DNA from: Nannobrachium achirus
Taxonomy: Eukaryota; Chordata; Actinopteri; Myctophiformes; Myctophidae
Length of the DNA stretch: 64,000 bases
Direction of reading: 5' to 3'
Assembly (NCBI GenBank): GCA_963921795.1
Contig: OY997642.1
Location: 64,227,140 to 64,291,139, forward strand
Positions 20,933 to 55,845 of this stretch are shown piece by piece; the stretch's first letter is position 1, and the number at the start of each line of letters is the position of its first letter. Position numbers and translations under genes: made by a program. The notes under the pieces were generated by a model, which had not been told where the DNA came from, did not search any database, and saw only the letters and a list, made by a program, of their open reading frames with translations.

Positions 20933-21074
20933 TATACTTTAGTAAATGATCAAACATGATAAAGGAAACGTGTGTAAAGTGTCAGAAGTGTCAGCATTGC
21001 AGACATTATTTTAAATTGAATGAACGTGAATGCAGACACGGCAGTTTAATGTTCCTATTTATGTCTCTTCACAG

Positions 21075-21256
21075 GTGAATCTGTGGTGGTGAGAGATGGC
21101 ACAGGGTGGCAGAGAGACACAGGGTGGCAGAGAGACGCTTGGGAGCAGAAGCCTGGGGAAGTGGGAGTTCCTCGGCTCAGGAGGCTTTGGATTGATCTAT
21201 ACGGCTCAACACAAGGACTGGGGCAAAGTGGTCATCAAACTGCCTCACGATGATGG
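21075..21256 (+). CDS. Kinase gene exon with start codon (ATG 21096)
   Basis: The exon follows a CTCTTCACAG acceptor (AG 21073-21074), so an untranslated first exon must lie upstream. ATG at 21096 opens a frame with two GGRETQ-like repeats, then the glycine loop LGSGGFG and VVIK lysine. The donor is GTAAGA at 21257. The frame leaves 2 nt. Confidence 0.75.
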
Positions 21257-23552
21257 GTAAGAGATCATTAACATAAAGATACATCATTATGAAGATTGAT
21301 ATGAGACGATTAACATAACGATAAATAATATGATGATTGATATGAGACAATTCACATAAAGATAAATAATATGATGATTGATATGAGACGATTAACATAA
21401 ATATAAATAATATGATGATTGATATAAGACGATTAACATAAAGACACATCATTAAGATGATGGGTAAGAGATGATTAACATAAAGATAAACTAGGAAGAC
21501 GCCTCAGGGCGACATGCGACCTCGCCCCAATGCTTGGCCATCTGGTCAGTGATGTATATGGGACCAGTTACTCATGGAGACCCCTGCATGATAGTCAACA
21601 ATGTTATGCCAAAACATGCCCATATATGGGCATTACCATACATGGCCATTCCCAGATATGTCCTTAATATTGATAACATTGGGACAGGAATCTCCATATA
21701 TGGGCATAAAACGTATGTTAATTAGTAAAGCCAAGCAGAGCCTTGGCAAGTTAGGGCCTGGGTTTGATGCCTTGGGATCTCCATATTTGGGCATAAGTGT
21801 GTACCGTAACAGGGCATCATCTGGGAATGCCATACTGTATATGGATATTTTATTGTGGGCTCGCCTTAAAGGCGAGAACACTATGTTATCTTTATGTTAT
21901 CTTTATTTATATTAGGCTATTATATAGTGAGTTCCGTCTCAGACAGTACAAAGGCAGTTATTTATATAGTGAGTTCCGTCTCAGACAGTACAAAGGCAGT
22001 TATTTATATATAGTGAGTTCCGTCGCAGACAGTACAAAGGCAGTTATTTATATAGTGAGTTCCGTCGCAGACAGTAGAAAGGCAGGGCCATTAGCCAATG
22101 AGGTGCAATTGAGTTGCGGAAAAAATCTGGGGGTAGTGTTAACTGGAGTATTGGTTGAGCTTCACATGAGCACGCTGCAGAATATAGTCACGAGCGAGCC
22201 CATACTGTTTCGTAGGAAAAGTATTTCTAGTTTATTTTATCCTTTATTAATATATATCCATATACATACAGTATATGGACTTAATATTAACGTTTTCGTG
22301 GAAAGTAGGGTGTAAATCAGAGTAAAGCAGCCAGGGACATCCAGGGTTTGATCTTTGATGAGGTGATGTCATGTGATGTCACGTGACATCACTTCCTGTA
22401 CTGACACAGAGACAAGCTACTACATTTCTCATGGTAAACTGCAACCTTCTGTCGCAATAATTATGATGATGGGTAAGAGAGCATTAAAGATGGGGTGCCA
22501 TGTTATTTCCCCCTGAAACATGATGATCAGGTATTATGATTATACTAGGAGGAAAAGTGTACAGAAAGTGTTAAAATTATGTTTTTATGTGGCCACACCC
22601 ACCAGAACATTAAGTATGCCTGGTTGTTAGGTGGGTGGTCAGGGGAACCACACTAAACTAATCCCTTTTATGTCCATATACAGTATGTCATCAATATTAA
22701 ACCCATACCTGGGAATGCCAAATATATACATATTGTGTCAGTCTAACCAATGTGGCTGCCCCGACACGGGTCACACTTGCAAATTAATTCCATCCTTGTC
22801 CCTTGTATGCCCGAATTCAGTCCTGCGCAAACACACCCTTTAGGTGATTTCTTACTGATGATGGGAAGTTTATCTTCAACTGAGAATTAGGTTGATTCAT
22901 ATCAATCGGTTGATTCACATGAATCACATATCTGCAACACGTTGTGAGCTTGTATTGATCTGTTATATCTTTTATATATCTTGCTATATCATGTATATGT
23001 GGTGAGTCGTACAGTGTGGTGAGTCACAGCCCCAGCCTGAAGCCTCAAAAGTCTAGTATCTGCTCTTGTTCCATAGGGATGTCCCTATGATGGTTAAAAT
23101 ATTGGACTTTCACGCGGGAGACCAGGGTTCAAAGCGGGGTGGGGAGGTTCAGATCACCTCCGTTACATTGGTGCCGTGACCTGGATCAGGGCTTCCCCGT
23201 AGGAGGAGGTCAAAGGGGGTTGAGTGTGGTGAGTCGCAGCCCCAGCCTGAAGCCTCAAAAGTCTAGTATCTGCTCTCATTCCATAGGGATGTCCCTTTGG
23301 TGTGATGGTTAAGATATCGGACTTTCACACGGGGGACCTGGGTTCGAAACCGGTTGGGGAGGTTCGGATCACCTCCGTTACATATAGATCTGCTATTTTT
23401 TGGCATGGTCCCTCCCAGGTTGGGGATATTTTGATTATCGCAATAATATCGTGAATCACAATAATCGTGACATGAAATGATCATATTGTCCCATCCCTAG
23501 TCTACTGTAGCAACGCCAGCTCCATGTAACTGTGATCTACAGTAACTGTCTA

Positions 23553-23591
<39 letters not shown>

Positions 23592-24123
23592 CCTAACCTA
23601 AACGCTCCACGTCACCAGGTCTATCAGGTCCTACTCCGCTCTGTGTCGAGAGGCTGACTACATGGAGGCTGCAGTCCACCAGTACGTGCCTAGGGTCTAT
23701 GGGATGTACCGAGGCCGTGTGGCCAGCCTGGGCTCCACCGTGAGGCAGGGGATAGTGATGGAGCTGATGGAGAGAGGCTCCCTGCAGTCCCTCCAGGAGA
23801 GCCTGTCTCAGAGCCAGCCTAAGCCTCCACCCTGGCCCCTGGCCTTCCGTCTGGCCCACCAGGTGGCGCTGGCCATGGACTTCCTCCAGGGCACCAAAAA
23901 CCTCGTGCACATGGACCTGAAACCAGACAACATCCTGCTGGATGCCAACTTAAACGCCAAGGTATGTTCAGTTCAATCCAATGCCAACTTAAACGCCAAG
24001 GTGTGTCCAATCAGTTCAATTCAATCCCAACCTCTCAATTCCCGTTTCCAGTCTGGAATCTAGACTGGAATAAGGTTTTGTTTTGATTTACCCCCAAGCA
24101 GTGCAAACTGAGACACACACGCA

Positions 24124-24185
<62 letters not shown>

Positions 24186-27100
24186 CTGTAAACTATGGAC
24201 TCCTGCATCCTACTGTGGCCGGTGGCCGTTACACTACGTTTATGGGAGATATCATTACTTGTCATTGTGCTGTACACACATCCAGGCCTTGGTTGTCCCA
24301 CACCAGCCGCCATAGTCTGCTAAACTGGTGTTATGCTGTTTTGTTTTGTCAAGTCCCAGAAAAGACTCACTGTGATTGGCCAGTATAGATTGGAAGTTGT
24401 GTTGATTGCTCACCCCAAAACATTGTTAAAGAGACTGTGGCGACACAACCAAGGCATGGATCATGTGTGTACAACTAACACATTCATGTTTTGCTAATGT
24501 TGATGGGACTCTATTTACATGGGACACTATTTAGGAGTGTGTTTAGATCTGTTCATTATTGAATTGTCGACTTCACGTTTGTGTGTGTGCGTCCTTGGCA
24601 GCCGGAGTCACTGTGTTTTGACCTGTTTATCAGAAAGTAAATTGTTTTGTTCCCGCCCCTTGTCAAAGGAGTACCTCTGTGTGTTATGGCCTTGTTAGAG
24701 GAGTACCTCTGTTTGTTATGGCCTCAAAGCACAGATGCCTAACATCACAATTAAAGAAGGTGACACTGTGATAAACATCACAATTAAAGAAGGTGACACT
24801 GTGATAACAAGAAAAAAACACATCTGCTACCTGGGTTGCATCCTATAGATAGATAGATACCTTTATTATCCCAAGGGGTAAAGTTTGTTGCCCAGAGGCA
24901 GCACAGCAGTATAAGGTTATTTACAAAGTTACAGAGAAGTATGAAAAAGATAAAAGGAAAAAACAACTGTACTTACTGTACAGAGTACAGTAAGTACAGT
25001 AAGAGCAAGGTACAACAGGAAAGGGAACGAATAATATATATACATAAAGTGTCTTAAAGCACGACTATCAAAATAATACAGTGCCCAAATCAAAGTGACC
25101 ATAACAGTCAATGCAATGCCAGTTAGTGCAACAAGTATCTCTACATCATGGAGGCTAACCTATCCAGTGAAAAAATGACTACCAAGGTAATCAATAAAGT
25201 CAACCAAAACATTTGTTTCTTGCATAGGGTTGCCCCGCTGATCAATATTAAAACACAAAAGACCCTAGGAGGTGCTCTTATTTGGCCCCTCAATGATTAC
25301 AGAATCCTCGTTTGGTATCGCGATGCCCCAGTTGCCTTAAAGTTAAAGCTGCAAACAGCCCAGAACAAAATTATTAGGGTCCTGTTTTGTCTTCCTCCTC
25401 GGGCCCACCTTACTGTTCATTACCATGAAAGTGTGGGATGGCTCAAAGTAGCTGACAGAGTACAGCATCTTGCAATGGGCCTGGTGTACAAGATACACTA
25501 CACCTCCAATATACCTGTGTACCTGACAAACTACTTCCTAAAGGTCAAGGTCCATGATCACAACACCAGAGGCAGCTCCACTAATCATGTTCAACCTAGA
25601 TTTAACACAATAAAAGGCTCTAATTCGTTCTCCAGCTATACCACCATGTGGAACACCCTTTCGCAAGCCTTAAAGGAGTCCCTAGCCTCCTTCAAAATTG
25701 GTATGAAAAGTCACCTTCAGGAGGCTGCTACTCGAGATTTGTAAATAGACTAAGCCCCCATGTGTCCACCCCCTTTTTTTCTCCCTCTTTTCTGCTTTTG
25801 TAATTGATGTTAACCCATGTAAAGTAATATGTAATATACGTCTGTTTTTCAATGTTGTATGAGATACATAAAGTGGTTCCTGTGTAAATAAGCTGTAAAG
25901 CTTAATAGGATCTCCTTTTAGTTGACCTTGTACCAGTGATTTCATGAAACTGTACTTTTTTCTATTGCAAACTCTCCTTTCAACAGATTGCAGATTTTGG
26001 CTTGTGCACCGTGTCCAACAGCGTGAAGGAGACCACGCATGAACGCAAAGGCGGCACCCTGTCCTACACTCCCCCTGAGGCATTTGAAGATGACTACCGT
26101 CGTGTTCGCTCCTACGATGTTTACAGGTGAACTGTTGAAGGAATGCTGTTGATACAGACTCAGCAAGTAAATACTAGTTTGTGAAAATGCCCTTTGAAAC
26201 AATTTGTTTTCTTCTTTTCATCAGCTACGGTATACTTCTCTGGACCATCCTGACTGGAGACAGGCCCTATCCAGGTGCAGTTATTGATCCATAATTTCAT
26301 GTGAATGTCAGTCGTATGCAGAAGTATACAAACATTATGCCTAAACACTCCACACTCTCCTATCTAACATCAGGGTCTAGAGCTCTAAACCCTCCACACT
26401 CTCCTATGTAACATCAGGGTCTAGAGCTCTAAACCCTCCACACTCTCCTATCTAACATCAGGGTCCAGATCTCTACAGTGTTATTGGCTAAACCCTCCAC
26501 ACTCTCCTAACATCAGGGATTTTAACTTGTATTTCCTGTAGAGTTGGATCCAAGCCTGGTGTCATTCAGGATCAAAAGGGGAGACAGGCCTCTTCTGGAC
26601 AAAATAGATGTCCATCAAGCAGCTGGATTAGAAGATCTGGTGGAGCTGATGACCAGATGCTGGGACCATGAGCCTGACAAGAGACCCTTGTTTAGAGGTC
26701 AGTATTAATACTGACTCTTATACTTCACATTGTTCTAGTGATGCGCGGGCCGACCCGGTGCCCCCACCCGCCCGCCAACCCGCCCGCGTGCGGGTGGGTG
26801 GGTCAAGGTTTGAGACTCAATATTGGCGGGCGGCGGGCGGGCGGGTTATCACCACTCTCATGTGCAAAAAATAAATAAGAATAATCACCTGTTCTTATTT
26901 GCCTTTTATTCTTAATAAGAGTAGTCCTATAAGAATAAGAATACAACGTTTGAATACGAGCATGACGAGCGAGCATGTTTTAAAATGCGCCAGAGAGGAG
27001 CGAGGTTTCTCCTCCGCTCCTTGGTGCGAGGACCGTCCCAATTCCGCTCCTGTTGGGCCCGCGAACCGCATTTTGCCAACATTTGACACAATGTGAGCAC

Positions 27101-30100
27101 AGCAGAAGAATGCACAAACAATTCAGCAGGATTTCACTTACCGTATGTGTCTCTGTCATCCACACAAGTCCGTTTATAGCTAAATACTTTGCTAAATACT
27201 TTGCGACGGCCTGAAAGTCCAACGGCACGGAGATCCGAATCCGATGTCTCAGAGAGAGAGAGCCCCCCCCCCCTCATGCGCAGATCGAGGTTGATTAAAA
27301 CAATTAACTAATTAGCCTAAAAGCCAGCAAATAAATAGCCAGATCTGAGCACATATCAATATATAAGGCCAAATCTAATTAAAAAAAGTATAAAAGCTAT
27401 TTGAGATGTTTATAGATTAGAATCTTTACACACCTGCTCCCAAATAATTAATTATATAATTCCAGTTCACTGCGCATCTATTATGTAGGTCATTTCAATT
27501 AAGCTCTCGCACTCAATTGTGTCAGCGCTCGTCTGAAAAGAGTCGAGCAGCTCCCGCCTCCCTTAGTTTAAACTAGGTTATAAAATGACATATAGGTATA
27601 TATAGAATAGATTTTCAGCCAAGAAGTGAATGAAAACGTATTGTCCATGCTGGATTATTATTTCTTCAAATTGACTGCATCCATCCTGGATCACACAATA
27701 AGAGGTAACATCCAGGTCTTTATTATCCATCATGCTTTCAAATCAAACAAAGTAATCACTCATAGGCCTATGTGTGATGATGTGTGAGACCAAGTTTAAC
27801 ATCTTAAACATCACATGCTGCGCATCCAAAGTCAGCCGCCTCTCCTCCTCTTTCTCTCCTGCTCCTGTGTGTCTCCGCTCTCATATAGGCTATACTAAAT
27901 TGAACAGCCTTTCGGACTTTAAGTCACTCGGACTTTAAGGCCATCGGAAAATCACCATGCGTCCACCTCGAGTCGCTCCCATGATCCCATCTCTCCAATC
28001 TGGTGAATCAATAACCAACAGAATGTAATATTGTCCGTCTTTTGCTGTCTGCGCTGTATAAATATGATTGACATAAAACCTGAAACGCCATTCTTACCCC
28101 GACGATGCCCCAGAGAGAATGAACGTCTTTGAATGAATGTCTTTTAGGCTAAACCCCAATTTGAACAACACGTTTGTTTATTTAGCCCCTGACAATATTG
28201 TGCTACTGTAAACCTTTCTGTAAAGCGACGTTGGGTACTTAGAAGAGCCGTATACAGATGAGCTATTCTGGAGATGATATACCATCTTTTTTTTAAATGC
28301 GGGTTGCGGGGCGGGCGGATTCGTTGATTTGTATATTGTTCTGCGGGGCGGGCGCGGGCGGGTTACGTTTCGTGCGGGCTGTGGGTCGTGCGGGTTATGA
28401 AAAAAACCTGACCCGCGCATCACTACATTGTTCATTAATATTATACATTTTCAAGTTATTACTTACTTCAATATGTATGGAAAAAATATACATCAGTAAA
28501 GATGAAAATAATAACAATTCGTAGATCTGGTGATTAAACTCCATTCACCTCTTAATGCCTATAGATTCTATTGACCGGAGTCCTCAAGGGGTCTATCCTG
28601 GACCTACTCTTTTTTCCCCTCTACACCAAATCTCTTGGTGTATCGCTGTCCTGCTTTTCATTTAGTTGAAGATATATTTTGTGTATTTTCATTTCAGAAT
28701 GCATTGAAGTGCATTCTGAATTCACTTCAGAATGCATTGAAGTGCATTCTGAATTCACTTCAGAATGCACTGAAGTGACATTTTGTGTATTTTAATTTCA
28801 GAATGTGTTGAAGTGACCAGTCGTGTGTTTTCCAGACATGAAGAGGGAACCGACGCAGCCGTCTGTGAAGTGTTGAAATAGCTGGTATGTACTGTACTGT
28901 ACTGTACTGTACTGTACTGTACTGTACTGTACTGTACTGTACTGTATACGATGTGTCAACTTTATTCAGACTCTTTTTCTAACCCTTAGCACCTGACCTA
29001 GTAGTAATGACCATACTGACTGCATTTACCTGCGATCCTATAGTTTACTGAGACACTACACTGTCTCTCTGCATTCTATGATCCTATAGTTTACTGAGAC
29101 GCTACGCTGTCTCTCTGCATTCTATGATCCTATAGTTTACTGAGACGCTACGCTGTCTCTCTGCATTCTATGATCCTATAGTTTACTGAGACGCTACGCT
29201 GTCTCTCTGCATTCTATGATCCTATAGTTTACTGAGACGCTACGCTGTCTATCTGCATTCTATGATCCTATAGTTTACTGAGACGCTACGCTGTCTCTCT
29301 GCATTCTATGATCCTATAGTTTACTGAGACGCTACGCTGTCTCTCTGCATTCTATGATCCTATAGTTTACTGAGACGCTACGCTGTCTATCTGCATTCTA
29401 TGATCCTATAGTTTACTGAGACGCTACGCTGTCTATCTGCATTCTATGATAATATAGTTTACTGAGACACTACACACTGTCTCTCTGCATTCTATGATCC
29501 TATAGTTTACTGAGACATTAGTTAGTAGTCTACATGTGTGCAAGATGTAGCGTCCACAAGCTTACCTTCCCTACCCTTCTTCTTTTCCTTTTCTCCATGT
29601 GACCAGAACACTTCAGAGGAGCAGGCAGAGCCAGAGGATGTGGAGACAGACCTCATGGTGCCTATACAAGAGGACCATCATACGGTCAGTTTGTTTCACC
29701 TGAATGATTAGCAATGAGTTACTTCATTTACTTAACTCATTGTCTGCCAAAAACATCTCACCACCTATTTTCTTTTTTCTTCTTCTTAAAAAAAAGAAAA
29801 GAAAAACAAATTTTTCAAAAGAATTTCATGAATACATGGAAAATGGATGAAAATGGATGATCCACAAGCTCACAGTCACCTCTGCCCAAAAGTGACGCTT
29901 TGTGAGCTTTTAAATCTGCTTTTATCATAAGTTTGGGTTCCAGTTAAACATCCGTTTTAGATCTTGAACTAAAAGGTTTCGGGTTAGGTTGTGGTAGTGG
30001 TTAAGGTGGGCTAGCAGTTTAAGTAATATTGGAATGTTTGCACGTGCCTGCCTACAGCTGGCCTGGTCCTGTAAGGTGTGTACCTTCCTCAACAAGCCAA

Positions 30101-30547
30101 TGCGTCCTGGCTGTAAGATGTGTGGTGAGAAGCGACCAGAGATGTACCAGGCTCCTGACGTCTACGAGCCAGCATCTACCCGACTGAAGATGGAGGCACT
30201 TGCCTTGGCCCAGTACCAACAGGTAACTACTACTACTTTTGTGTATCATCGTCCTTGATGATTGGTTGGCGTCATGTATATACTAGAGGTTTGCGCCCGC
30301 TCCTCCCGTTTTATAGTAAGGTATTATGATATGATTTCCCCCTCTCTGATTGGCTATATGGGCCCATAGCCCGTGACTGGTTATGCACCTTGTAATGTAT
30401 TTATATTAGGCAGCACTTGTTGATAATGACGTCACCAATAATGCTAGTCCATCATTGGCTGTTGATGGTGATGATGGTGACGTCATCACCCAGTTGATGA
30501 CATCACTCTGTGTTATTTCAAGGATTCTCCCATTGGATGACGTAAAC

Positions 30548-30620
<73 letters not shown>

Positions 30621-33600
30621 AAGACAGACAGACATAGCTTTGGCTGATAGATAGATAGAAGATGTTCATTTGATGTATTTACTGCATTGTGTCATTACTT
30701 TGTACTGATTATGACAGCAATGCAACACAATTAATCTAACATTGTGTTTCCAATCAAACAGAAGGTGTCCAAGTCTCCGTGGAAGTCTGACACCAAACCC
30801 AAAAAACTGAAAGGTACAGAGACACTGATTAAAATATGACCTTTGATTTAAAGCTATACTGTGTAAGATGCCCAACTAGTGGTCATTAGCCCTATAGCAA
30901 ACCGCGGTCGCGTCCGCGTCTTTCGGCCGTTTTTCGTACCTTCAGACCCCCGCGTCTGCCTCCACCTCGCTGAGATCTATCTTTAGAGGGGTCCCTTGTT
31001 CCTGTGCGTTCAGTAATTCCAGAGATACGGACTCCTTCACCCTGCCTGGTAGGCGAAATTACCTAGAGACGGGATGGTACAAACGGGTGACAACAAATAT
31101 GGCAGCCATAGCGACCCCACTTCAAGATGCGCTGTGATTGGCCGGCAGTTGTATAACCCTCGCTGTGATTGGCCGGTAGTGTGATGACGCAATTTTGGCG
31201 CGAGATCCGGTCCCCGGCAAGGATCACAGTTTACATATATAGAGAAGGCTTTACAGGCTGAAATTCACGGCGCGGATCTTCTAAAACTTTTGTGATTTAA
31301 TAGTTAGGAGAATTTTAAGATTTGTTTTATAAAAAAAGTTACATAGTACAACTTTAAAGACTGTGGTGTGAGCACCACACTGTTATAATACAAGGTTATA
31401 ATGTAAGATCACTTACTAAGTCATTCAGAACTAGAAGGCACTCTGTCAAGGTGCTAACTTGCTTACTGTCTACTGTAACATGGGAACAATATCATTCTGC
31501 TGCTCTGCCACCAACATCTTTAATGTCCTGACACCATCATTAAAGATATCATTAAAGATGTTTAATGTCCTTACACAATCATTAAAGATGTTTAATGTCC
31601 TGACACAATCATTAAAGATGTTTAATGTCCTGACACAATCATTAAAGATGTTTAATGTCCTGGGTCTGACACTGTCCATTAAAAAAAACTAGCAAACCTA
31701 GCCTGTAAAAACATCTATCAGGAGACCACAAGGGGAGGTTAATGTAAAAACATCTATCAGGAGACCACAAGGGAAGGTTAATGTATTTGTCATTCAGTGC
31801 CCTTTTCTCTTTTGTACAGTATAGTGTACAGTACACAGTGTACATACAGGATATGTATTTAAAGGTTAAAATGTTATGCTCTGTAGATTAATTTGATACA
31901 TAGCACCACAATGGAAACAAGCCCCCAGGACTCCTTTTGGCCTTAATGTCTGACTGTGCCTCTGTTTACATTTATGACTAAGACAGTATTGTGTTGTAGC
32001 CCCCAGAGCATTCAGTGTGTATTTCCAAACGCACCCTTTGATTTATGCATACTTTGTAGATTAAAATGTAGATTAAATTGTAGATTAAAATATAGCCTAA
32101 ATTCAAGTCATTATTCAGTCGTGATGTTTAATGCCTTCTTGTGTCTCCAGGGAACAGAACAAGGACGGGCCTTTTACAACGTGAGTACATGCTGATTGGT
32201 TTTAATCCTTTCATGGTGATTGGTTCACTGCTTTAAACTATTCATGGTGATTGGTTCACTGCTTTTACACAAAGCCTTCATGTGATTGGTTCAATCTTTT
32301 ACACAAAGCCTTCATGTGATTGGTTCACTCTTTTACACAAAGCCTACATACACTGACATTGTTTGGATAGCGGTACACCAGTGGTTCTCAAAGTGAGGTC
32401 CGGGGACCCCCAGAGGTCCTTGAAGGGGTTCCAGGGGGTCCCAAGTAAAATACGTCAATTTGTTTATTAGCACAAACAAATGCACTCATGAGCCACAGCT
32501 GGTCACACAGACCAGTCGCCCAGAGGCGGCACAGCAATTAATGTTACTGAGTTTCAGGTAAAAGGTATTAAAAAGAAAAGGTCTTGTTCAAGATTCATGG
32601 TTACATATTACGTCTTTTGTACAGGTTGTGGGGAACGGGAAGCAAGACGCCAGTCAAGTTCACAGTTTAAGCCGCTTACAGGGCGTTTTATTTAGAAAAG
32701 AAGGAGACAGCAAAAAGTTAACTGAAAGGTTCCAATGTTCAACTCAAAGGTAAGTACAGCAGCAGGCAGTTCTTAGGGCGGGAACAGTGCCGGGAGGCAC
32801 TGGAGGTGAGTACTCAGGTAGGATACTCGGATACTCGTCAGCAGGTGGAGCAGAGGAAGGTAACCAGCAGGTAAGCCGTTAGGTACTTTTCAGGGGGAGG
32901 TGAGTATACAGCAGGTAGGTACTTGGATACTTTTAGCAGGTAGGGCCACAGTAAGTATTCAGGCAGGTAGGTAATCTGATACTTTTAGCAGGTAGGGCCA
33001 CAGTAAGTATTCAGGCAGGTAGGTAATCTGAAACTTTTAGCAGGTAGGGCCACGGTAAGTATTTAGGTATAGGGCTGCTGAGAGTACTCAGGTCAGCTGC
33101 CGTCGAGATAAGTATGAGGTAAGTTACTTTTACTCTTCACAGGTAGGGGAGCCCAGGTAAGGCAGTAGGGCTTAAAGTAATCGAATACGTGTGATGAACT
33201 TAGCTTCTAACTTTTACAGGGAATTAAAGAGGTCCATGTTTCAAGCCATCTTGTAGTTAGTCATGCATGCCAGGCCAGGATTGGGGTACAGAGCGGGACA
33301 GCCATTCGGCCTGGAATTAGAGAATCTAACATTACTATACAGCATTTCATCACACTATGCCTGAGAGGAAATGAGTGTGAGTGAGATATTCTTACCGAGT
33401 GAACTGCGTCCCACTGCACAGAGAGAGAGAGGAGGAATGAAGGAGAAACAGCTCGGTCTGCCCAGGCTGATTTCAGACTCAGCTCACGCTTTAGTCTGAA
33501 ACTGTGCCCTATTCTGAGTGATTTACGGGGAGGGACTTTTTTGCGAGAGTGCACGCGCGCAACCGCATGCGAATGATCGCAACGCACGGTGAACGCGACG

Positions 33601-35543
33601 CACGGTGAACGCGACGCACAGTGAATGCGACGCACGGCCGTGGCGTGTGTGTGTGATTGTGTGTGTGTGTGTGTGTCTCTGACATGTCTGTGCCAGTGAC
33701 TGCTTCCACATAGAACTGCGACCAGAAACATGTAATCAACATTAACAGCTTGGTGAAATCAGCGCGCACGCGTGTGTGCCTGCCTCAGCCTGCCTATGTG
33801 TGTGTGTGAACTTTGTTTGAATCGTTTCAACTGCTGCGCGGATTGGATATTTGTTAAACCCACCCCCACCCCCTGTTGGATCAGCCGCAGTTTTTGTCTG
33901 CTAAACTGCCGATTCATGTACTCAGCTCCAGATCAGAGAAACAGTCCACTCTGAGAGTGGGCGGGGTCTATTATGGAGGTATTTCTGTATCTTATTCGTG
34001 AGAGCAGATTTGTGATGTTGTGCAGTTATAGGCCTACATTAAGATTTGTGCACTCGTACCTCTGAATTTGCAGACTCGTATATGGAATCTGAACTTGAAA
34101 AGGCAAAAAAAAGCACACGTACACTTTTCCATTTGCAACTACAAATCCCTGTCTACACACTCGCAAATCGTCATTTACAACCTCAAATCCCTTTCTACAC
34201 TTGCTCAAATTAGTTGAAACTGTTGCTCTCTAAATTGCAACATATTCCTCAATATGTCGTTGCAATATTTGGCAAAAGCGAGCAGGGGACACTGAAAAAA
34301 TGCGAGTGCTTGTATGCTTGATTTGAGCATCTGTACATGATGATTCGAGAGGTTGTAAACTGAAATTTGTACGTGTGCAGTGTGTTTTTTTTCAGAATCC
34401 ATTATACACGTGTGTGCCCTGCCCTGCTCACGCACGCATTTCCTTTTACAACCTCAACTCCCTTTCTACACGCTCGCAAATCGTCATTTACAACCTCAAA
34501 TCCCTTTCTACACTTGCTCAAATTAGTTGAAACTGTTGCTCTCTAAATTGCAACATATTCCTCGATATGTCGTTGCAAAATCTAGCAAAAGCGAGCAGGG
34601 GACATTGAAAAAATGCGAGCGCTTGTATGCTTGATTTGAGGAAGTGTACATTGAGATTTGTGTGTGTGTAAAGCATAGGCCGAGCACAAGCAGAAACAAT
34701 TTGCATGTCTGTAGAAGCATGAGGCGAGTGTGAGCAGAGACATTAGTGACAATTTGCATGTGTGTAAAGCATAAGTTGAGTGAATACAGTTAATTAAAAT
34801 AGCAGTTAGATATCGAAACGCCACAAGGTACACAAGAGAACTTGTTTGTGTTTGGCTTCCTTCAGACAATGCAGTGGTATACAAGAGCAAACAATACAAT
34901 AACAGCAAAAACAAAAACAATCTAAAAGCGGCAAGTGATTCCTTTTGCCCTGGACCGTTCTCATCTTTGACAGTTTGTTCATGTGCCTGATTGTTTGTGG
35001 AAAGGAGCTTCTTTGTAGTCTGTTGCTAGTAGCTTTGAGACTGCGTAGCCGTTTTCCAAGAGGCAACATATTGAACAGACGGTGTAGATCTTTGATGATT
35101 CCCTGGGCTTTTTTGACACAGCGTTCGTTGTAGAGGGCTTGGATTGGGGGGAGATCACATCCACTGATGCGTTCGGCTGTCCGCACGACCCTCTGCGGTT
35201 GAGGTCTGTGCAGCCGCCGTACCAAGCAGTGAAGCAGCCAGTCAGGATGCTCTTTGTGGTGCCTCTGTAGAAAGCTCTTAGGACTTTGGGGCCCATCCCA
35301 GCCTTCTTCAGCTTCCTGAGAAAGTAGAGGCGTTGTTGTGCTTTCTTGACAACCCGCTCTGTCTGCACTGCCAAGGTAAGATCCTCAGAGATGTGCAATC
35401 CCAGGAATTTGAACTCTTCAACCCTCTCCACTGCAGCGCCCCCGATTTAATATACCTAAAGTACCAAAAAAAAAGCAGATCTACAAGCTAACAACACACT
35501 GCAATGCGACTATTTTCAAATAGCCTATATGTATAAAATAGGG

Positions 35544-35582
<39 letters not shown>

Positions 35583-37166
35583 GACTTTATTAGATGTTTG
35601 CATAGGAAAAGGTACAGTTTCATCATGGTACAGTTCACTGGTACAAGGTCAACTAAAAGGAGATCCTAGAAAAGCACTTGGCTTATTTACACAGGAAGTA
35701 TTGCATATAACATTGAATGACAGACGGATAAATGGTTGAAATGGTTAATGTATGTTTTATAATATACTACTCAAAGAAATGAAGGCAACAAAATGTTCCC
35801 TTAATGTATTTGAATTTATTTGAGTATAGTATACTGTAGTACTGCTCAAAGATATCTCAAAGAATTAAGGGAACATTGTGTTCCCTTCATTTCTTTGAGC
35901 AGTTGTATAATACTTGATATCTGCAAAGTAACTAGTGACTAAAGTTTTCTAATAGTGGAGTAAAAGTATATTTTCCTCTGAGATGTATTGGAGTAGAAGT
36001 AAAAGTACTGGAAACTGGAAAAGTACCTCAAAACCTTACTTAAGCTAATCTACAAGTCCATTTAGAACACTTGTTCTCTAAAATAGCAAGATCTACAGGT
36101 CCATTTAGAACAGTGGTTCTCTAAAATAGCAGATCTACAAGTCTATTTAGAACAGTGGTTCTAAAATAGCAGATCTACAAGTCCATTTAGAAGAATGGTT
36201 CTAAAATAGCAGATCTACAAGTCCATTTAGAACAGTTGTTCTCTAAAATAGCAGATCTACAAGTCCATTTAGGACTGGTTCTAAAATAGCAGATCTACAA
36301 GTCCATTTACAACAGAGGTTAACTAAAATAGCAGATATACAAGCTCACAGAGCATCATGGCGTGCTTTGACCTATTTTGTGTCCTTCCTGAGATCTACTG
36401 GCGCACACAGACACACACACGCGCGTGCACATACCACACACGCGCGCACACACAAACGCACGCACCCACGCACACAGCAACTAAATAATAAATAACACAT
36501 TCTTCTTATTGCTGTTGTTGTGTAAATGTTGATCCAACACAGTGACACCAGGTGTAAAGTGTTTCATTAGTTGAGATATTTTGTCATGTGTTTTTTCTCA
36601 CAGATTCCTGTCAACTTTCACTGGATGAAAACACAGCAAGCAACGAGCTCATCCTGTCAGAGGAGAACAGGAAGGTGACTAGTATATACCGAGACCAAGG
36701 TCGTCCTGAACATAAAGACAGATTTACCTCTAGGCCTCAGGTGTTGAGTAGAGAGCCTCTGTCTGACCGCTCTTACTTTGAAGTAGAATGGAGTGGAGGG
36801 GGTGTTTACGTAGCAGTCAGTTATAAAGACATCAGCAGGGAGGGGAGATCATCATGGTTTGGATACAATAAGATTTCCTGGATGTTAGTTTACGATGGTT
36901 CATCCTACAGGTTCAGACACAACAACACTCTGACTGACCTGTCAGGACGTCCCTCCACAGTGGGGGGTGTGGCTAGGGGGGTTTGGGGAGTGGACGTAAA
37001 TCAGAGAAATGGTTCTGTGTCTTTTTACAATGTTGATAAGAACACTCTGACCCTCCTCCATACAGTAAAACACACCTTCACAAAACCTCTCTATGCAGGG
37101 ATAATGGTTGGTGGTACTGGATCTACAGCAGAGGTCTGTAAGATCTGGTATTCAGAGAGCAGCTAA
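21096..37166 (+). CDS. RIPK3-like kinase - NZF zinc finger - B30.2 fusion gene (in-frame TAG after kinase)
   Basis: Ten or eleven exons join in compatible phase. They are 21096-21256, 23619-23961, 25987-26126, 26225-26274, 26542-26697, 28802-28884, 29607-29684, 30058-30222, 30762-30813, optionally 32151-32180, and 36604-37166. The kinase domain has a GSGGFG loop (residues 27-32), VVIK Lys48, HMD (151-153) in place of HRD, and DFG 171-173. It ends with LMTRCWDHEPDKRP and AAVCEVL, closest to RIPK3 from memory. A HOIL-1/RBCK1-like NZF (about 340-392) and a complete PRY-SPRY of about 187 residues follow. Codon 310 is TAG, so as sequenced the protein stops after the kinase at 309 residues; without that stop it would be about 596 (606 with the 30-nt exon). 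No RHIM motif is seen. RIP kinases signal in cell death and NF-kB pathways, and NZF domains bind ubiquitin; the combined role is inference. Confidence 0.7.
21262..21480. repeat. ~60-bp tandem repeat in kinase-gene intron 1
   Basis: About four copies of a unit containing GATTGATATGAGACGATTAA and CATAAAGATAAATAATATGA. Confidence 0.85.
21487..21875. repeat. CArG-box dispersed repeat in intron 1
   Basis: It contains CCATATATGG at 21620-21629 and 21694-21703 and CCATATTTGG at 21781-21790. It matches the inverted complement of 46800-47105 closely, including the outer GACGCC/GGCGTC ends. Confidence 0.75.
21912..22085. repeat. ~44-bp tandem repeat
   Basis: Four copies of a unit with ATATAGTGAGTTCCGTC and CAGACAGTACAAAGGCAG. 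Confidence 0.9.
22640..22850. repeat. Dispersed-repeat fragment related to the CArG-box family
   Basis: It shares CACACTAA, TTTTATG, TCATCAATATTAA and CCTGGGAATGCC with the copies at 20716 and 46720. No perfect CArG box is left in this copy. Confidence 0.5.
23020..23384 (+). mobile_element. Tandem pair of tRNA-derived SINEs
   Basis: Two copies (about 23020-23165 and 23230-23384) share AGCCTGAAGCCTCAAAAGTC and a tRNA-like head. The second has the better preserved head, with TGTGATGGTTAAGAT (A box region) and GGGTTCGAAACC (B box). Confidence 0.75.
23549..23592. repeat. (TCTG)n microsatellite
   Basis: About ten TCTG units just upstream of the second coding exon acceptor, contributing its pyrimidine-rich tract. 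Confidence 0.9.
23619..23961 (+). CDS. Kinase gene exon: hinge to catalytic loop
   Basis: The acceptor CACCAG gives a start at 23619, or 23628 if the second AG is used (three fewer residues). It encodes ELMERGSLQSLQ (hinge), WPLAFRLAHQVALAMDFL (helix E) and HMDLKPDNILLD (catalytic loop). The donor GTATGT begins at 23962. A 39-nt tandem copy just downstream offers a second donor at 24001. Confidence 0.85.
24113..24182. repeat. (ACGC)n(AC)n microsatellite
   Basis: A tetranucleotide run grading into a CA run in intron 2 of the kinase gene. Confidence 0.95.
24846..25140 (-). mobile_element. LINE 3'-UTR fragment
   Basis: ATAGATAGATACCTTTATTATCCC at the left end (plus strand, shown as its two halves ATAGATAGAT and ACCTTTATTATCCC) is the inverted tail of a fish LINE. 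CCCAGAGGC and the following CAGCACAGCA recur near 32520 in modified form. Confidence 0.5.
25148..25950 (+). mobile_element. Non-LTR retrotransposon 3' end (C-terminal reverse-transcriptase region plus 3' UTR)
   Basis: A 198-codon frame (25148-25744) reads LQTAQNKIIRVLFCLPPRAH, WLKVADRVQHLAMGLVYKIH and MWNTLSQALKESLASFKIGM, the C-terminal tail of a CR1/L2/Jockey-type LINE protein. The 3' UTR (25742-25945) recurs as truncated tails at 10905, 35548 and 63425. It is 5'-truncated and inserted in kinase-gene intron 2. Confidence 0.75.
25987..26126 (+). CDS. Kinase gene exon: DFG and activation segment
   Basis: The acceptor CAACAG is followed by IADFGLCTVS, GGTLSYTPPEAFED (activation segment to APE-like PPE) and SYDVY. 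The donor is GTGAAC at 26127. It enters in phase 0 and leaves 2 nt. Confidence 0.85.
26225..26274 (+). CDS. Kinase gene exon: helix F region
   Basis: A 50-nt exon between TCATCAG and GTGCAG, reading YGILLWTILTGDRPYP. Confidence 0.85.
26346..26520. repeat. ~45-bp tandem repeat in a kinase-gene intron
   Basis: About four units containing CTCCACACTCTCCTAT and AACATCAGGGTC. Confidence 0.9.
26542..26697 (+). CDS. Kinase gene exon: C-lobe end
   Basis: The acceptor CCTGTAG and donor GTCAGT bracket a 156-nt exon reading FRIKRGDRPLL and LEDLVELMTRCWDHEPDKRP, the conserved C-lobe arginine motif. Confidence 0.85.
26736..28425. mobile_element. Non-autonomous hAT element (1.69 kb) with perfect 8-bp duplication
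   Basis: TIRs TAGTGATGCGCGGGC and CCCGCGCATCACTA lie between identical CATTGTTC repeats (26728-26735 and 28426-28433). GC-rich subterminal arrays of GCGGGCGGG follow. A nested element (about 27207-27966) is shared with 62008-63215. No transposase frame is seen. It sits in the intron between kinase exons 26542-26697 and 28802-28884. Confidence 0.85.
28690..28790. repeat. Triplicated pseudo-acceptor segment before the TAG exon
   Basis: TTCAGAATGCATTGAAGTG and two close variants occur three times immediately upstream of the true TTTCAGAATGTGTTGAAGTG at the exon start, so the acceptor and first codons have been copied in tandem. Confidence 0.8.
28802..28884 (+). CDS. Kinase gene exon carrying an in-frame TAG
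   Basis: The acceptor AATTTCAG and donor GTATGT (28885) define an 83-nt exon reading ECVEVTSRVFSRHEEG and AAVCEVLK, then TAG (28879-28881) and one more codon CTG before the donor. Phase in and out agree with the neighbours. The TAG could be a real terminator of a kinase-only protein, a nonsense mutation (CAG to TAG is one change), or a sequence error. Confidence 0.7.
28886..28946. repeat. (TACTG)n microsatellite
   Basis: About twelve pentanucleotide units begin at the 5' splice site of the TAG-bearing exon. Confidence 0.95.
29035..29515. repeat. 46-bp minisatellite, about ten copies
   Basis: The unit contains GATCCTATAGTTTACTGAGA and GCTACGCTGTCTCTCTGCAT. Copies are nearly identical, so the array is recent. 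Confidence 0.95.
29607..29684 (+). CDS. Linker exon between kinase and NZF
   Basis: A 78-nt phase 0/0 exon between GTGACCAG and GTCAGT. It encodes NTSEEQAEPEDVETD, an acidic linker with no recognised domain. Confidence 0.65.
30058..30222 (+). CDS. NZF (RanBP2-type) zinc-finger exon, HOIL-1/RBCK1-like
   Basis: A 165-nt phase 0/0 exon between CCTACAG and GTAACT. The zinc ligands follow C-x2-C-x10-C-x2-C in WSCKVCTFLNKPMRPGCKMC, with the Thr-Phe pair that contacts ubiquitin in NZF domains. The following RPEMYQAPDVYEP and ALALAQYQQ resemble the helical tail after the NZF of RBCK1, which binds linear ubiquitin. The resemblance is from memory and should be tested by alignment. Confidence 0.8.
30541..30640. 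repeat. (GACA)n microsatellite
   Basis: About 24 tetranucleotide units with two interruptions. Confidence 0.95.
30762..30813 (+). CDS. Basic linker exon
   Basis: A 52-nt exon between AATCAAACAG and GTACAG, reading KVSKSPWKSDTKPKKLK. It leaves 1 nt, matching the B30.2 exon. Confidence 0.65.
30852..31353. mobile_element. MITE with TTAA duplication
   Basis: The ends AGCTATACTGTGTAA and TTACATAGTACAACT are imperfect inverted repeats flanked by TTAA (30848-30851 and 31354-31357). The GC-rich interior has no gene. Confidence 0.7.
31500..31790. repeat. Two adjacent minisatellites
   Basis: A 33-bp unit with CATTAAAGATGTTTAATGTC repeats about five times (31520-31665). It is followed by two copies of a 48-bp unit with AACATCTATCAGGAGACCAC (31705-31785). 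Confidence 0.9.
32151..32180 (+). CDS. Possible 30-nt cassette exon
   Basis: Strong splice signals (GTGTCTCCAG and GTGAGT) bracket 30 nt that keep phase 1 and add ten residues. Inclusion is optional; the downstream exon is in frame either way. Confidence 0.35.
32190..32345. repeat. ~35-45-bp tandem repeat
   Basis: Repeats of TGATTGGTTCACTGCTTT / TTACACAAAGCCTTCATG. Confidence 0.85.
32620..33250. repeat. Repeat-rich intron segment with ~60-bp tandem unit
   Basis: At least three copies of TTTTAGCAGGTAGGGCCAC with GTAAGTATTCAGGCAGGTAG (32930-33065). The outer part may be an old LTR or MITE but no boundaries are evident. Confidence 0.6.
33470..33975 (-). repeat. Second copy of the ~500-bp dispersed repeat (inverted)
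   Basis: It matches the reverse complement of 12060-12539 in order, with expansion of the CA/TG tract and of an ACGGTGAACGCGACGC unit. Confidence 0.75.
34205..34645. repeat. ~310-bp-spaced direct duplication
   Basis: Segments 34205-34330 and 34516-34645 share ACTGTTGCTCTCTAAATTGC and AAGCGAGCAGGGGACA. The surrounding TTACAACCTCAA / CTACACTCGCAA text is a looser repeat. Confidence 0.8.
34802..35445 (-). mobile_element. LINE C-terminal fragment with frame change
   Basis: On the minus strand one frame reads VEEFKFLGLHISEDLT, KKAQQRLYFLRKLKKAG and TAWYGGCTDLN. The homology then continues in another frame with RVVRTAERISG and LYNERCVKKAQGIIKDLHR, so there is a frameshift near 35180. This is the end of a fish non-LTR reverse transcriptase. 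Confidence 0.75.
35548..35740 (-). mobile_element. 5'-truncated LINE tail with (GATT)n
   Basis: A GATT tetranucleotide run (35550-35580) is followed by GAAGACTTTATTAG, ACAAGGTCAACTAAAAGGAG and TTATTTACACAGGAA, the inverted tail of the LINE at 25148. Confidence 0.7.
36045..36350. repeat. Tandem array of hairpin half-units
   Basis: Seven copies of a roughly 45-bp unit AAATAGCAGATCTACAAGTC plus CATTTAGAACAGTGGTTCT. The unit is one arm of the dispersed hairpin family, here amplified head-to-tail just upstream of the B30.2 exon. Confidence 0.9.
36604..37166 (+). CDS. PRY-SPRY (B30.2) terminal exon
   Basis: After a TTTCTCACAG acceptor the exon reads SCQLSLDENTASNELILSEE (PRY), then FEVEWSGGGVYVAVSYKDIS, SSWFGYNKISW and YAGIMVGG (SPRY), ending in TAA at 37164-37166. 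The domain is full length and intact. B30.2 domains of this type form the C termini of fish TRIM and NLR proteins. Joined to the preceding exon it starts DSCQLSL, the usual PRY entry. A separate gene starting nearby is possible but no alternative first exon is evident. Confidence 0.85.
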
Positions 37167-39454: not shown

Positions 39455-40560
39455 AGAAAGAAGTCAAAAGACAACACAAGTACACTCTGGATAAAATCAG
39501 ATCAGGCTGGGAGGCGGAATTAGGGGAAGCTATCCCTGATGACATTTGAAATCAAGCCCAAACTCAAGTGAATGGCAGTACCCCGTGTGCCCGGCTTAGC
39601 TTGATACAATTGAAGGTTGTACACCGCTCTCACTACTGCAAAACTAAACTTTCTAGAATATACTCCAGTGTGGATGACAGCTGCGACCGATGTCACACAT
39701 CCCCTGCAAACTTAACCCATATGTTTTGGTCATGCCCTCAACTAGAGAGGTACTGGTCTACTGGATCGCAATATTTAGACATATATCACAAATGTTATTG
39801 CGACCGTCAGGTCGCAGTTACTGGCAAAACCTCGACCAGCTGTCCGTCCGTCCGTCAGTCCGTCTGTCACACGTCACACGTCACACTTTTGCCCTGCTCA
39901 TATCTCCGCAACCGCTGCCCCGATCCATGCCAAATTTTGTACACACACTCCTTACCTGCCAAACCACAACCTCCATTCATTCTCACATGGCCCTCGTCTA
40001 GCGCCACCATGAGGCCGATTCTTGCAAAACACATTTTTTGGACACTGCTCCTACAATTTTTGCCCTAAAATCACGCAAATCGGTACACAGCATGCACAGC
40101 ACTCATCTCATTAACATGGATCTGTCCCATTTAGCGCCACCTTCAGGCCGATTTTTTCAAACACATTTTTGGACACTGCTCCTACACATTTTGGCCTAAA
40201 ATCATGCTGCGACCTGACGGTCGCTTATCTCCCGATTAGGGAGTCTTACTCGTTATAAACTTACAGCCTAACCCTGTAACAGCTATTTTTGGTGTACCGC
40301 CCAAAGAACTTCCTCATAATAAAATAACGTATAATGGTATTGCCTTTCTAACACTGTTAGCACAGAGAAAAGTCCTCCTAGAGTGGAAGTCCCTGTGTGC
40401 CCCTAAGCTAGATCTATGGCTGAAAGACGTAATGCTATATTAAACTAGAGAAAATCGAATTTGACTTACAAGGGATCCCAGGTGGATATATGTCCAACTG
40501 GGGCCCTATAATAAATGATCTTACCAGTCTGACAAGACTGTCTGAAGACACATAAGACTG
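39455..40560 (+). mobile_element. L1/Tx1-type LINE C-terminal fragment, split by an insertion
   Basis: The frames read VVHRSHYCKTKLSRIYS, CDRCHTSPANLTHMFWSCPQ (zinc-knuckle-like CxxC...H...C of L1-type ORF2 tails), and after the insert FGVPPKELPHNKITYNGIAF and LLEWKSLCAPKLDLWLKD. Stops and the insertion make it non-functional. Confidence 0.75.
39798..40252. mobile_element. Non-autonomous element with GCGACC palindromes, inserted in the LINE
   Basis: GCGACCGTCAGGTCGCAG near the left end and CTGCGACCTGACGGTCGC (40207-40224) near the right end are perfect inverses. The right end continues CTCCCGATTAGGGAG, a hairpin, then TCTTACTCG. GTTAT occurs at both junctions and may be a 5-bp target duplication. 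Confidence 0.6.
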
Positions 40561-53789: not shown

Positions 53790-55845
53790 TTAAATGTCCT
53801 GACCACTTACTCTGCCAGGCAAGGAAGAAAACAAATTAAGACTGGACTGGATAATTCTAAAGAGTAATAATCTCTGTAGAATAACCAAGACCAGTTTTAA
53901 TTCTACAAAGTCTATAGGAGAACTATTAGCAGCTTGGACCTGAGAGAAAGAAAGAAAAAGAATGAAACTCACTGAGGTCCTGGTGGTCTTCAGGTTCCTC
54001 TTGTTTAGTGGAGATGGTCCTGGATGGCTCACAGTTGAAAGGCTGCTCTCTCCACTATGGATGCACTTATGATTTCTTAATGCCCCAGGCCCAGTAAAGA
54101 ACTTCCCACATATTTCACAACCAAAAGGTTTCTCTCCAGCATGGAGGAGCTGATGTGTTTTCAGGTTGCCTTTCTGGGTAAAACACTTCCCACATGTTTC
54201 ACAGGTGAAAGGCTTCTCTCCAGTGTGAATTCTATTGTGTTTCACAAGGGCATCCTTTCGATTGAAACCTTTTCCACACTGGTCACAGGAATAACGTTTC
54301 TCTTCAGGATGGACGCACTGATGAGTTTTCAATTGATCACGACGAGTAAAACACTTCAAACACATTTCACAGCTGAATGGTTTAAATCCAGTGTGAATTA
54401 TGTTGTGTCTTTTGAGGCCATAAATGTCAGAAAATCTTTGACCACACTGGTCACAGCAGTAAGGCTTCTCTCCAGTATGAATTTGCCTGTGTCCTTTAAG
54501 GTGAGACAATTGAGTGAAGGCTTTTCCACACTGCTCACAACAAAAGGGCTTCTCTCCAGTGTGAATTTTCTTGTGTTGTTTGAGGAGACACAATCGAGTG
54601 AAGGTTTTCCCACACTGGTCACAGCAGTATGGCTTCTCTCCAGTATGGATGCGCTGGTGACCTTTTAAGGCTTTATTATCAGTAAAACACTTCCCACATG
54701 TTTCACAGCTGAAAGGCTTCTCTCCAGTGTGAATTCTATTGTGATTCACAAGGGCATCCTTTCGATTGAAACCTTTCCCACACTGGTCACAGCTGTAAGG
54801 CATCTCTCCAGTATGGATGCGCTGGTGACGTTTGAGTTGCTGACTTTGGTTGAATGTTTTCCCACATTGATCACAACTGAAAGGTTTCTCTCCAGAATGG
54901 ATGCTTCTATGACTTTTTAATGACTCAGCATGAGCAAAACACTTCCCACATATTTCACAACTGAAAGGCTTCTCTCCAGTATGGATGCGCTGGTGACGTT
55001 TGAGATTCTGACTTTGGGCGAACTTTTCCCCACACTGATCACATCTGTAAGGCTTCTCTCCAGTATGGATGCGCTGGTGACCTTTTAAGGCTTTATTCTC
55101 AGTAAAACAATTCCCACATGTTTCACAGCTGAAAGGCTTCTCTCCAGTATGGATGCGCTGATGAGATTTGAGATTCTGTCTGTAGGTGAACCTTCTCCCA
55201 CACTGATCACAGCAGTGAGGCTTCTCTCCAGAATGGATTTTTTTGTGTGTCAAAAGTCTAGACATTTGATTGAATATTTTCCCACACAGGTCACAGGAAT
55301 ATGGTTTCTCTCCAGTATGGATACGATGATGATTCTCCCCAATATGAATACTCTTGTGTCGTTTAAGATTACAGGATACATTGAAACGTTTCCCACATTG
55401 GTCACAGCTGTAAGGCTTCTCTCCAGTATGAATGTTCATGTGGTTTTTTAGGCTACCAGGGTGAGCGAAGGTTTTCCCACACTCCTCACAACTATAGGGT
55501 TTCTCTCTGGTGTGAATTCTCTGGTGTACTCTCTAGTGAAGCTTTTACCACACTGGTCACTACAGCACGTTTTCTTTTCAGTGTGAATTCTCTGGTGTTT
55601 TTTGAGATTTTGCTTTGTATAAAACGTTTTCTCACATTGGTCACAGCAGTAAGGTTTTTCTCCATTGTGAATTGTCTGGTGTGTCTTGAGATTAGAGGAA
55701 ATATTGAAACGCTGACCACACTGGTCACAGCAGTAAGGTTTCTCCCCTGTGTGAATCATCTGGTGTCTTTTGAGATGCTGCTTTGTAGTAAACCTTTTCT
55801 CACATTGACGGCTTGGTTTAACTGGAGGCAGGGCCGGACAGGTAT
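53790..55845 (-). pseudogene. C2H2 zinc-finger array exon (~20 fingers) with frameshift
   Basis: The exon starts after a TTTCAG acceptor (AG 55847-55846) with TCPALPPVKPSRQCEKRF. It encodes four fingers (the first lacking its first cysteine) until the fourth is broken near 55520-55545. There the spacing between TR and the HQRIH that follows is 16 nt short, so the next finger (YSCEECGKTF) is in another frame. From 55439 a 549-codon frame has sixteen C2H2 fingers with TGEKP linkers, ending FGCEICGKFFTGPGALRNH. The product would be a DNA-binding regulator; with this frameshift it is interrupted. A sequencing or assembly error remains possible because the rest of the array is clean. Confidence 0.8.
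53973..54050 (-). other. Shifted-frame KQEEPED exon with splice donor at the end of the finger array
   Basis: In a different frame from the fingers the sequence reads PFNCEPSRTISTKQEEPEDH and then QDLS before a GTGAGT donor (53972). This is the same leader motif as at 5393-5494, so a leader exon lies directly fused to the finger array. Confidence 0.65.

Follow-up and report, generated by a model that had tools for sequence, protein, structure and literature searches.

The window, a stretch of 64,000 nucleotides from Nannobrachium achirus, carries a locus which is quite probably a member of an expanded family of RIPK3-like kinase-linker-B30.2 genes, with an NZF exon that has been captured from rbck1 and a private TAG codon that truncates the allele. 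Eleven exons with GT-AG borders have been assembled on the plus strand between 21096 and 37166 (Table 1), leading from a RIPK3-like kinase via a HOIL-1-type NZF to a PRY-SPRY domain. An earlier note on this DNA had proposed that these exons encode one fusion protein, joined by phase-compatible splicing. In the rebuilt model, all junctions are indeed GT-AG and match in phase (2, 0, 2, 1, 1, 0, 0, 0, 1, 1 in order), and the domain names given in the note have been found correct by Pfam and PDB sequence searches. The exons and phases of the proposed fusion stand; its open frame does not, as an in-frame TAG in K6 (28879–28881) had been overlooked, which halts the frame after residue 309. Because the frame carries this stop, no kinase-NZF-B30.2 protein is encoded by the locus as assembled.

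Gene Structure and Sequence Features

A Pfam search of the spliced protein, which had been suggested in the note as a check, matched Pkinase and PRY (PF07714 at 2.3e-43, PF00069 at 1e-35, PRY at 2.3e-13), with SPRY (1e-5, 26.0 bits) falling slightly below its cut-off of 26.3 and the RanBP zinc finger of the NZF also remaining below threshold (6.7e-4, 19.3 bits vs 27). At E ≤ 0.001, no Pfam match to RING, B-box, NACHT, UBL or RBR has been obtained for the spliced model, and Rfam and tRNA scans gave no match. That no other gene intervenes, as had been stated, holds insofar as none has been recognized; the scan between NZF and B30.2 comprised 10 plus-strand stop-free stretches and two larger ORFs.

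Table 1. Exons and further elements of the locus, in positions of the window.
Feature	Positions	Strand	Description
K1	21096..21256	+	First coding exon; its ATG preceded by a purine at −3 and followed by G at +4; GSGGFG glycine loop, beta-3 lysine; homologous K1 in C24
K2	23619..23961	+	Alpha-C Glu through HMD catalytic loop; 35 full or long genomic copies
K3	25987..26126	+	DFG, activation segment
K4	26225..26274	+	Kinase C-lobe
K5	26542..26697	+	C-lobe; Ser236 aligned with human RIPK3 Ser227
K6	28802..28884	+	Last exon of the kinase; 16 further copies detected in the genome, all open
TAG in frame	28879..28881	+	Private to the window copy; Gln codon in paralogues C24 and C18
L1	29607..29684	+	Linker exon of acidic character, phase 0-0; both C24 and C18 conserve the acceptor
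rbck1-homologous tract	29999..30227	+	59 bp upstream, NZF exon and 5 bp of donor intron; 242 alignment columns, 83.9%
NZF exon	30058..30222	+	Phase 0-0; HOIL-1-type core and tail
L2	30762..30813	+	Linker exon, phase 0-1; homologous exon and acceptor in C24
L3	32151..32180	+	Linker exon of 30 nt, phase 1-1; both C24 and C18 conserve the donor
B30.2 (PRY-SPRY)	36604..37166	+	Terminal exon with stop; acceptor conserved in C24 and C18
AATAAA	37972..37977	+	Likely polyadenylation signal of the gene

For the three linker exons, splice score and codon usage alone gave no clear answer, and the paralogues described below have decided instead. The codon usage of L1 is matched by 0.4% of stop-free intergenic windows, and L1 is the better of two phase 0-0 candidates by splice score; among 11 phase 0-1 candidates, L2 scores lowest, and a score as high as that of L3 is reached in the window by only three candidate exons on the plus strand (L3 included) and two on the minus strand. 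By the codon measure, neither L3 nor B30.2 appears coding-like; this measure was trained mainly on kinase exons and is considered weak because the B30.2 exon itself came out as non-coding.

Further elements have been observed along the locus. An acceptor at 21074/21075, seen by eye, suggests an upstream non-coding exon before K1. At the end of K2, a 39-bp tandem duplication (23942–24031) provides two in-frame donors of similar strength (23961, 24000), and use of the second might yield a 13-residue splice variant directly ahead of the DFG exon. Upstream of K6, its acceptor and exon start are partially repeated three times (28698, 28731, 28764); these repeats have been dropped as a sign of decay, similar copies being present in C24 and C18. 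The K6-L1 intron contains a 46-bp minisatellite of 10.5 copies (29034–29516). Elsewhere in the window, a Wnt family exon is located at 45324–45983 on the plus strand (Pfam wnt, 1.6e-45), and a long C2H2 zinc-finger exon with 17 zf-C2H2 stretches in Pfam at 53793–55532 on the minus strand. The plus-strand segment 47278–47661, without a Pfam match at 0.05, carries a motif which we take to be part of RIO kinase 1. Segments 34982–35446 (minus) and 39550–40065 (plus) may be retroelement-like remnants, the Pfam matches being ALKBH8_N at 2e-14 and a weak zf-RVT (0.0034).

The Kinase Domain

Homology to the N-terminal kinase domain of the RIP family (RIPK1-5) is present, and among solved structures in the PDB the kinase is nearest to human RIPK3 (6.8e-49, 112/275 aligned residues identical). 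By sequence search rather than by a tree, the best bit scores are 170 for RIPK3, 153 for RIPK4, 129 for RIPK2 and 102 for RIPK1, the RIPK4 score falling between those of human and mouse RIPK3. The likeness to RIPK3 further comprises the retained catalytic Lys, Glu, Asp and DFG, and the AQH motif, the Ser227-equivalent and the post-kinase segment, all of which align with RIPK3. The gene differs from RIPK3 in having HMD for HRD, changes in the MLKL pocket, a C-terminal B30.2 and no RHIM-type xQxG, a motif absent after the kinase both in the window model and in the C24 and C18 linkers; a RHIM-core scan of the window gave a single match, at 40492, outside the gene. The RIP kinases described so far end in a death domain, RHIM, CARD or ankyrin repeats (PMC12119088, excerpt), none of which is matched after the kinase here, where Pfam (E ≤ 0.001) yields only PRY and SPRY.

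On the MLKL-contact surface of human RIPK3, S227 and I209 are kept and V233 is replaced by I, V220 and L222 by P, T224 by L, and A232 by R. In human RIPK3, A232R has been described not to restore necroptosis, yet MLKL is still phosphorylated (PMC8608796, excerpt). As Arg occupies this very position here, necroptosis via MLKL appears doubtful as the output of the kinase. NF-kB would be the safer guess, since human RIPK1-4 activate NF-kB (PMC12119088, excerpt).

A Probable Family of Kinase-B30.2 Genes

The fish's own genome (1.66 Gb, 564 contigs, given here as C-numbers) has been searched with K2, which returned 78 matches. Thirty-five were taken as full or long single-exon copies with 65–100% identity, three of them covering only the second part of K2; 21 represent more distant genes of 42–68% identity, mostly with K2 split in two exons, and the other 22 are second pieces or fragments that were left out of the counts. 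None of the 35 copies contains a stop (2/78 overall do, both outside the 35). As judged from these sequences, the RIPK3-like kinases have undergone a large expansion in this fish; a part of the copies found on small contigs may have been duplicated in the assembly. The copies are often clustered, e.g., at C15:57.20–57.30 Mb, C15:62.3–62.5 Mb, C24:17.64 Mb and on C355.

In a genome search with the B30.2 exon, 150 of 1388 candidates were scored and gave 152 matches, of which the 150 listed ones were used. Judged by these listed matches, 13 of the 35 K2 copies, the window included, are followed on their own strand by a B30.2 no more than 40 kb downstream, as compared to two upstream on the same strand, two downstream on the opposite and one upstream on the opposite strand; 22 of the 35 have no listed B30.2 match within 40 kb. 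For the 21 distant kinase genes, the same listed matches place one B30.2 downstream on the same strand and none in the control positions. The B30.2 exons behind the kinases of the window, C24:1690614, C18 and C5:31664052 are rows 1, 2, 5 and 7 of the listed matches, among which eight of the best 12 are not paired with a K2 copy and many, row 2 included, contain a stop somewhere in the match.

Four paralogous loci have been read, two of them close relatives (C24:1654501–1674500 and C18:59571501–59591500) and two (C15:57196501–57204500 and C16:13099001–13109000) picked since they were already paired with a nearby B30.2 match. The C24 locus contains K1-K6 and all three linker exons (L1-L3), followed by the first part of B30.2, the remainder of which is masked as N; the C18 locus contains K2-K6, a single linker exon that corresponds to L1 and L3 fused, and the whole of B30.2. 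K1 of C18 either lies outside the stretch read or was not found there. In both, the frame is open from K6 to B30.2 (in C24, over the first part of B30.2 only), and conservation covers the donors of K6 and L3 as well as the acceptors of L1 and B30.2. With C24, the acceptor of L2 is conserved too, and intron sequence aligns with the paralogues across much of the locus. Linker exons left aside, C15 and C16 show the same order of K1-K6 followed by B30.2. The 20 kb flanking the window on each side gave only weak matches to family exons (E 0.2 to 0.5). Loci in which these exons belong to different genes had been named in the note as the case that would speak against the join; the paralogous loci of the same genome instead keep order and junctions. 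Because of this order, the conserved junctions and the open frames, kinase and B30.2 most likely form one gene in this family, as far as genomic sequence can tell.

The Captured NZF Exon

In the PDB sequence search, the NZF exon matched HOIL-1/RBCK1 at 5.7e-15, the tail included. NZF-like exons (E ≤ 0.001) have been found at four places in the genome, namely the window, C6:44637925, C21:29916535 and C5:35526053. On C6, the locus is that of rbck1, as RING-IBR-RING exons, recognized by eye, follow downstream on the same strand. The exons at C21 and C5 are HOIL-1-like with 47% and 45% identity and, as a guess, may belong to sharpin or to a relative of rbck1. Neither a family kinase nor a B30.2 turned up near these other three places in the stretches read (60, 30 and 20 kb), and a conserved kinase-NZF-B30.2 triad is thus not borne out; in other members of the kinase family within this genome, an NZF was not detected either. 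A search of viral contigs with the NZF exon returned no relative.

The homology to rbck1 extends beyond the exon, the borders of which are identical in both genes, into the intron flank (Table 1): the NZF is a genomic, not retrotransposed, copy of the rbck1 exon. About 1 kb separates L1 and L2 in the window and holds this copy; the corresponding distance in C24 is about 0.2 kb. The exon would accordingly have been copied, intron flank included, into the phase-0 intron between L1 and L2, and since its own phase is 0-0, it can, at the DNA level, splice in with the frame kept.

Compared to HOIL-1 (chain 3b08; numbering counted from Trp195), 31 of 54 aligned residues are identical. All four zinc Cys are retained, as are T201, F202, M213, K205, P206, R208, P209, Y228, P230, R237, L238 and E241; T207, E212 and D231 are changed, and the tail has lost three residues, among them the acidic one at the position of E234. 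T201, F202 and M213 have been assigned to the distal ubiquitin (PMC5135002, excerpt), and roles have been described for R208, P209, R237, position 241, the YXP motif and the acidic tail of the HOIL-1 NZF, a tail called unique to HOIL-1 so far (PMC10511788, excerpt). Judged by residue alignment only, the listed contacts for HOIL-1-type reading of Met1-linked ubiquitin are kept and the acidic residues of the tail are partly lost. The gene resembles HOIL-1/RBCK1 in NZF core and tail, on an exon copied from the rbck1 of its own genome, and differs by joining the NZF to a kinase and by lacking an RBR or UBL match. Relative to rbck1, Ka/Ks is 0.56 over 36 synonymous sites (7 synonymous and 15 non-synonymous differences), and strong constraint is not evident; should rbck1 be under constraint, the branch leading to the window would be close to neutral. 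A structure model of the single exon, computed without alignment, was poor (pLDDT 61.7).

The B30.2 Domain

Sequence searches support a PRY-SPRY fold of the terminal exon, with the B30.2 domains of stonustoxin and TRIM16 as the nearest relatives, and a low-confidence structure model (pLDDT 63.5, without alignment) matches TRIM16 B30.2 at 1.6e-9. As a single-exon C-terminal domain with these neighbours, it resembles the B30.2 of zebrafish NLR-B30.2 and TRIM16-type proteins, where the output module differs: here it is a kinase, and the spliced model has no NACHT, RING or B-box match. B30.2 is presumed to be a recognition module under positive selection (PMC4852459, excerpt). Between window and C18, Ka/Ks over 185 codons is 1.14, a point estimate with no significance test attached.

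The Premature Stop and Competing Readings

The TAG is codon 310, the second-last codon of K6, directly before a strong donor, and is the sole internal stop of the 607-codon model. No good phase-0 donor has been found upstream of it: in a ranking by a simple weight matrix, candidates stand at 16.5% or worse among the GTs of the window, compared with 1.9% for the real donor. Using K6 together with the residues that come next in the paralogues as query, 17 K6 copies were detected in the genome (E ≤ 0.001). As the frame is open in 16/17, the stop is private to the window copy; at this site, a Gln codon is present in both C24 and C18, the sibling codon being CAA. The stop is probably young, or an allele, and less likely an error. 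As a consequence of the stop, a truncated 309-residue kinase without NZF or B30.2, with nonsense-mediated decay, would be likely.

That the window copy is a pseudogene, NZF and TAG being accidents of a decaying duplicate and the intact kinase-B30.2 paralogues the working genes, is a serious possibility to which we give somewhat less than even weight. The privacy of the stop, the NZF Ka/Ks of 0.56 and the weak splice signals of L2 point this way, against which stand the single internal stop in 607 codons, the open B30.2 exon, the retention of the NZF frame, zinc ligands and T-F-M motif, and the kinase itself, for which Ka/Ks over K2-K6 is 0.25 for window-C24 and 0.22 for window-C18 vs 0.23 for C18-C24 (all without significance test). 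As the three pairwise values are alike, no sign of long relaxation is visible in the window kinase. This unchanged kinase selection, the lack of any other internal stop and the Gln codon of the sibling copies would also fit a TAG that stems from faulty assembly or sequencing, or that segregates as one allele, the full kinase-NZF-B30.2 protein being made. We regard this as less likely than not; CAA to TAG requires two changes, by which a single base-call error becomes improbable unless the local ancestor carried CAG.

The TAG, being in frame, could alternatively be the natural end of a kinase-only gene, with the NZF and B30.2 exons stemming from another gene or representing orphans wrongly joined. 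A precedent is provided by older zebrafish gene models, in which B30.2 exons had wrongly been joined to zinc-finger exons (PMC4852459, excerpt), an explanation which does not fit the paralogue loci read here. There, K6 is internal in C24 and C18, with a Gln codon and a conserved donor, and the frame continues to B30.2; furthermore, neither AATAAA nor ATTAAA occurs from the TAG to 30828, and the B30.2 orientation is biased (13/35 vs 2/35 among the matches listed). Kinase-only and split-gene models have hence been largely rejected on the paralogue evidence, and a kinase-only gene is considered very improbable. A kinase-NZF protein without B30.2 could result from a transcript ending after L2, where the donor is weak (top 11% of GTs) and a read-through stop at 30837 coincides with an ATTAAA at 30828, which by eye is conserved in C24 also. 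This product would be blocked by the TAG too, and in C24, where L2 and its flanks are conserved, splicing via L3 to B30.2 gives an open frame, which makes such an ending most improbable.

Implications for RIP Kinase Evolution

For the kinase-linker-B30.2 family to which the locus is assigned, we infer a ligand-sensing kinase function and an immune role of the protein. In intact members, the fast-diverging B30.2 would recognize a varying ligand, and this recognition would cluster or release the conserved kinase, which would then signal. An intact NZF allele would additionally be tethered to Met1-linked ubiquitin, with kinase and NZF in one polypeptide chain. TAB2 tethers TAK1 to Lys63 chains, and the TAB2/TAB3-TAK1 system is similar in that an NZF brings a kinase to ubiquitin chains; it differs in that the kinase and the NZF, there a reader of Lys63 chains, are parts of two different proteins.

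Searching the open-access literature by title and start of abstract has revealed no RIPK with an NZF or B30.2, which does not imply absence from print. The available excerpts mention neither SPRY nor zinc finger (PMC9573974), neither B30.2 nor zinc finger (PMC12119088), and, for immune expansions in anchovy, none of RIPK, B30.2, SPRY or kinase (PMC13403563).

The capture of the NZF represents an unusually clear case of exon shuffling, in which donor gene, donor exon, intron flank, symmetric phase and acceptor intron are all identifiable, and the HOIL-1-type NZF tail now has a second gene as its carrier, even if the allele at hand is interrupted by a stop. With about as much speaking for as against it, one may picture a multigene set of "kinase receptors" in the cytosol, where the NACHT or RING output is replaced by a RIPK3-type kinase, a fast-evolving B30.2 acts as sensor and modules such as the rbck1 NZF are added by exon shuffling, so that one kinase would read ligand and linear ubiquitin. 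With a multi-copy RIPK branch ending in B30.2, a recognition domain would be linked directly, and in a new way, to a kinase of cell death or NF-kB signalling.
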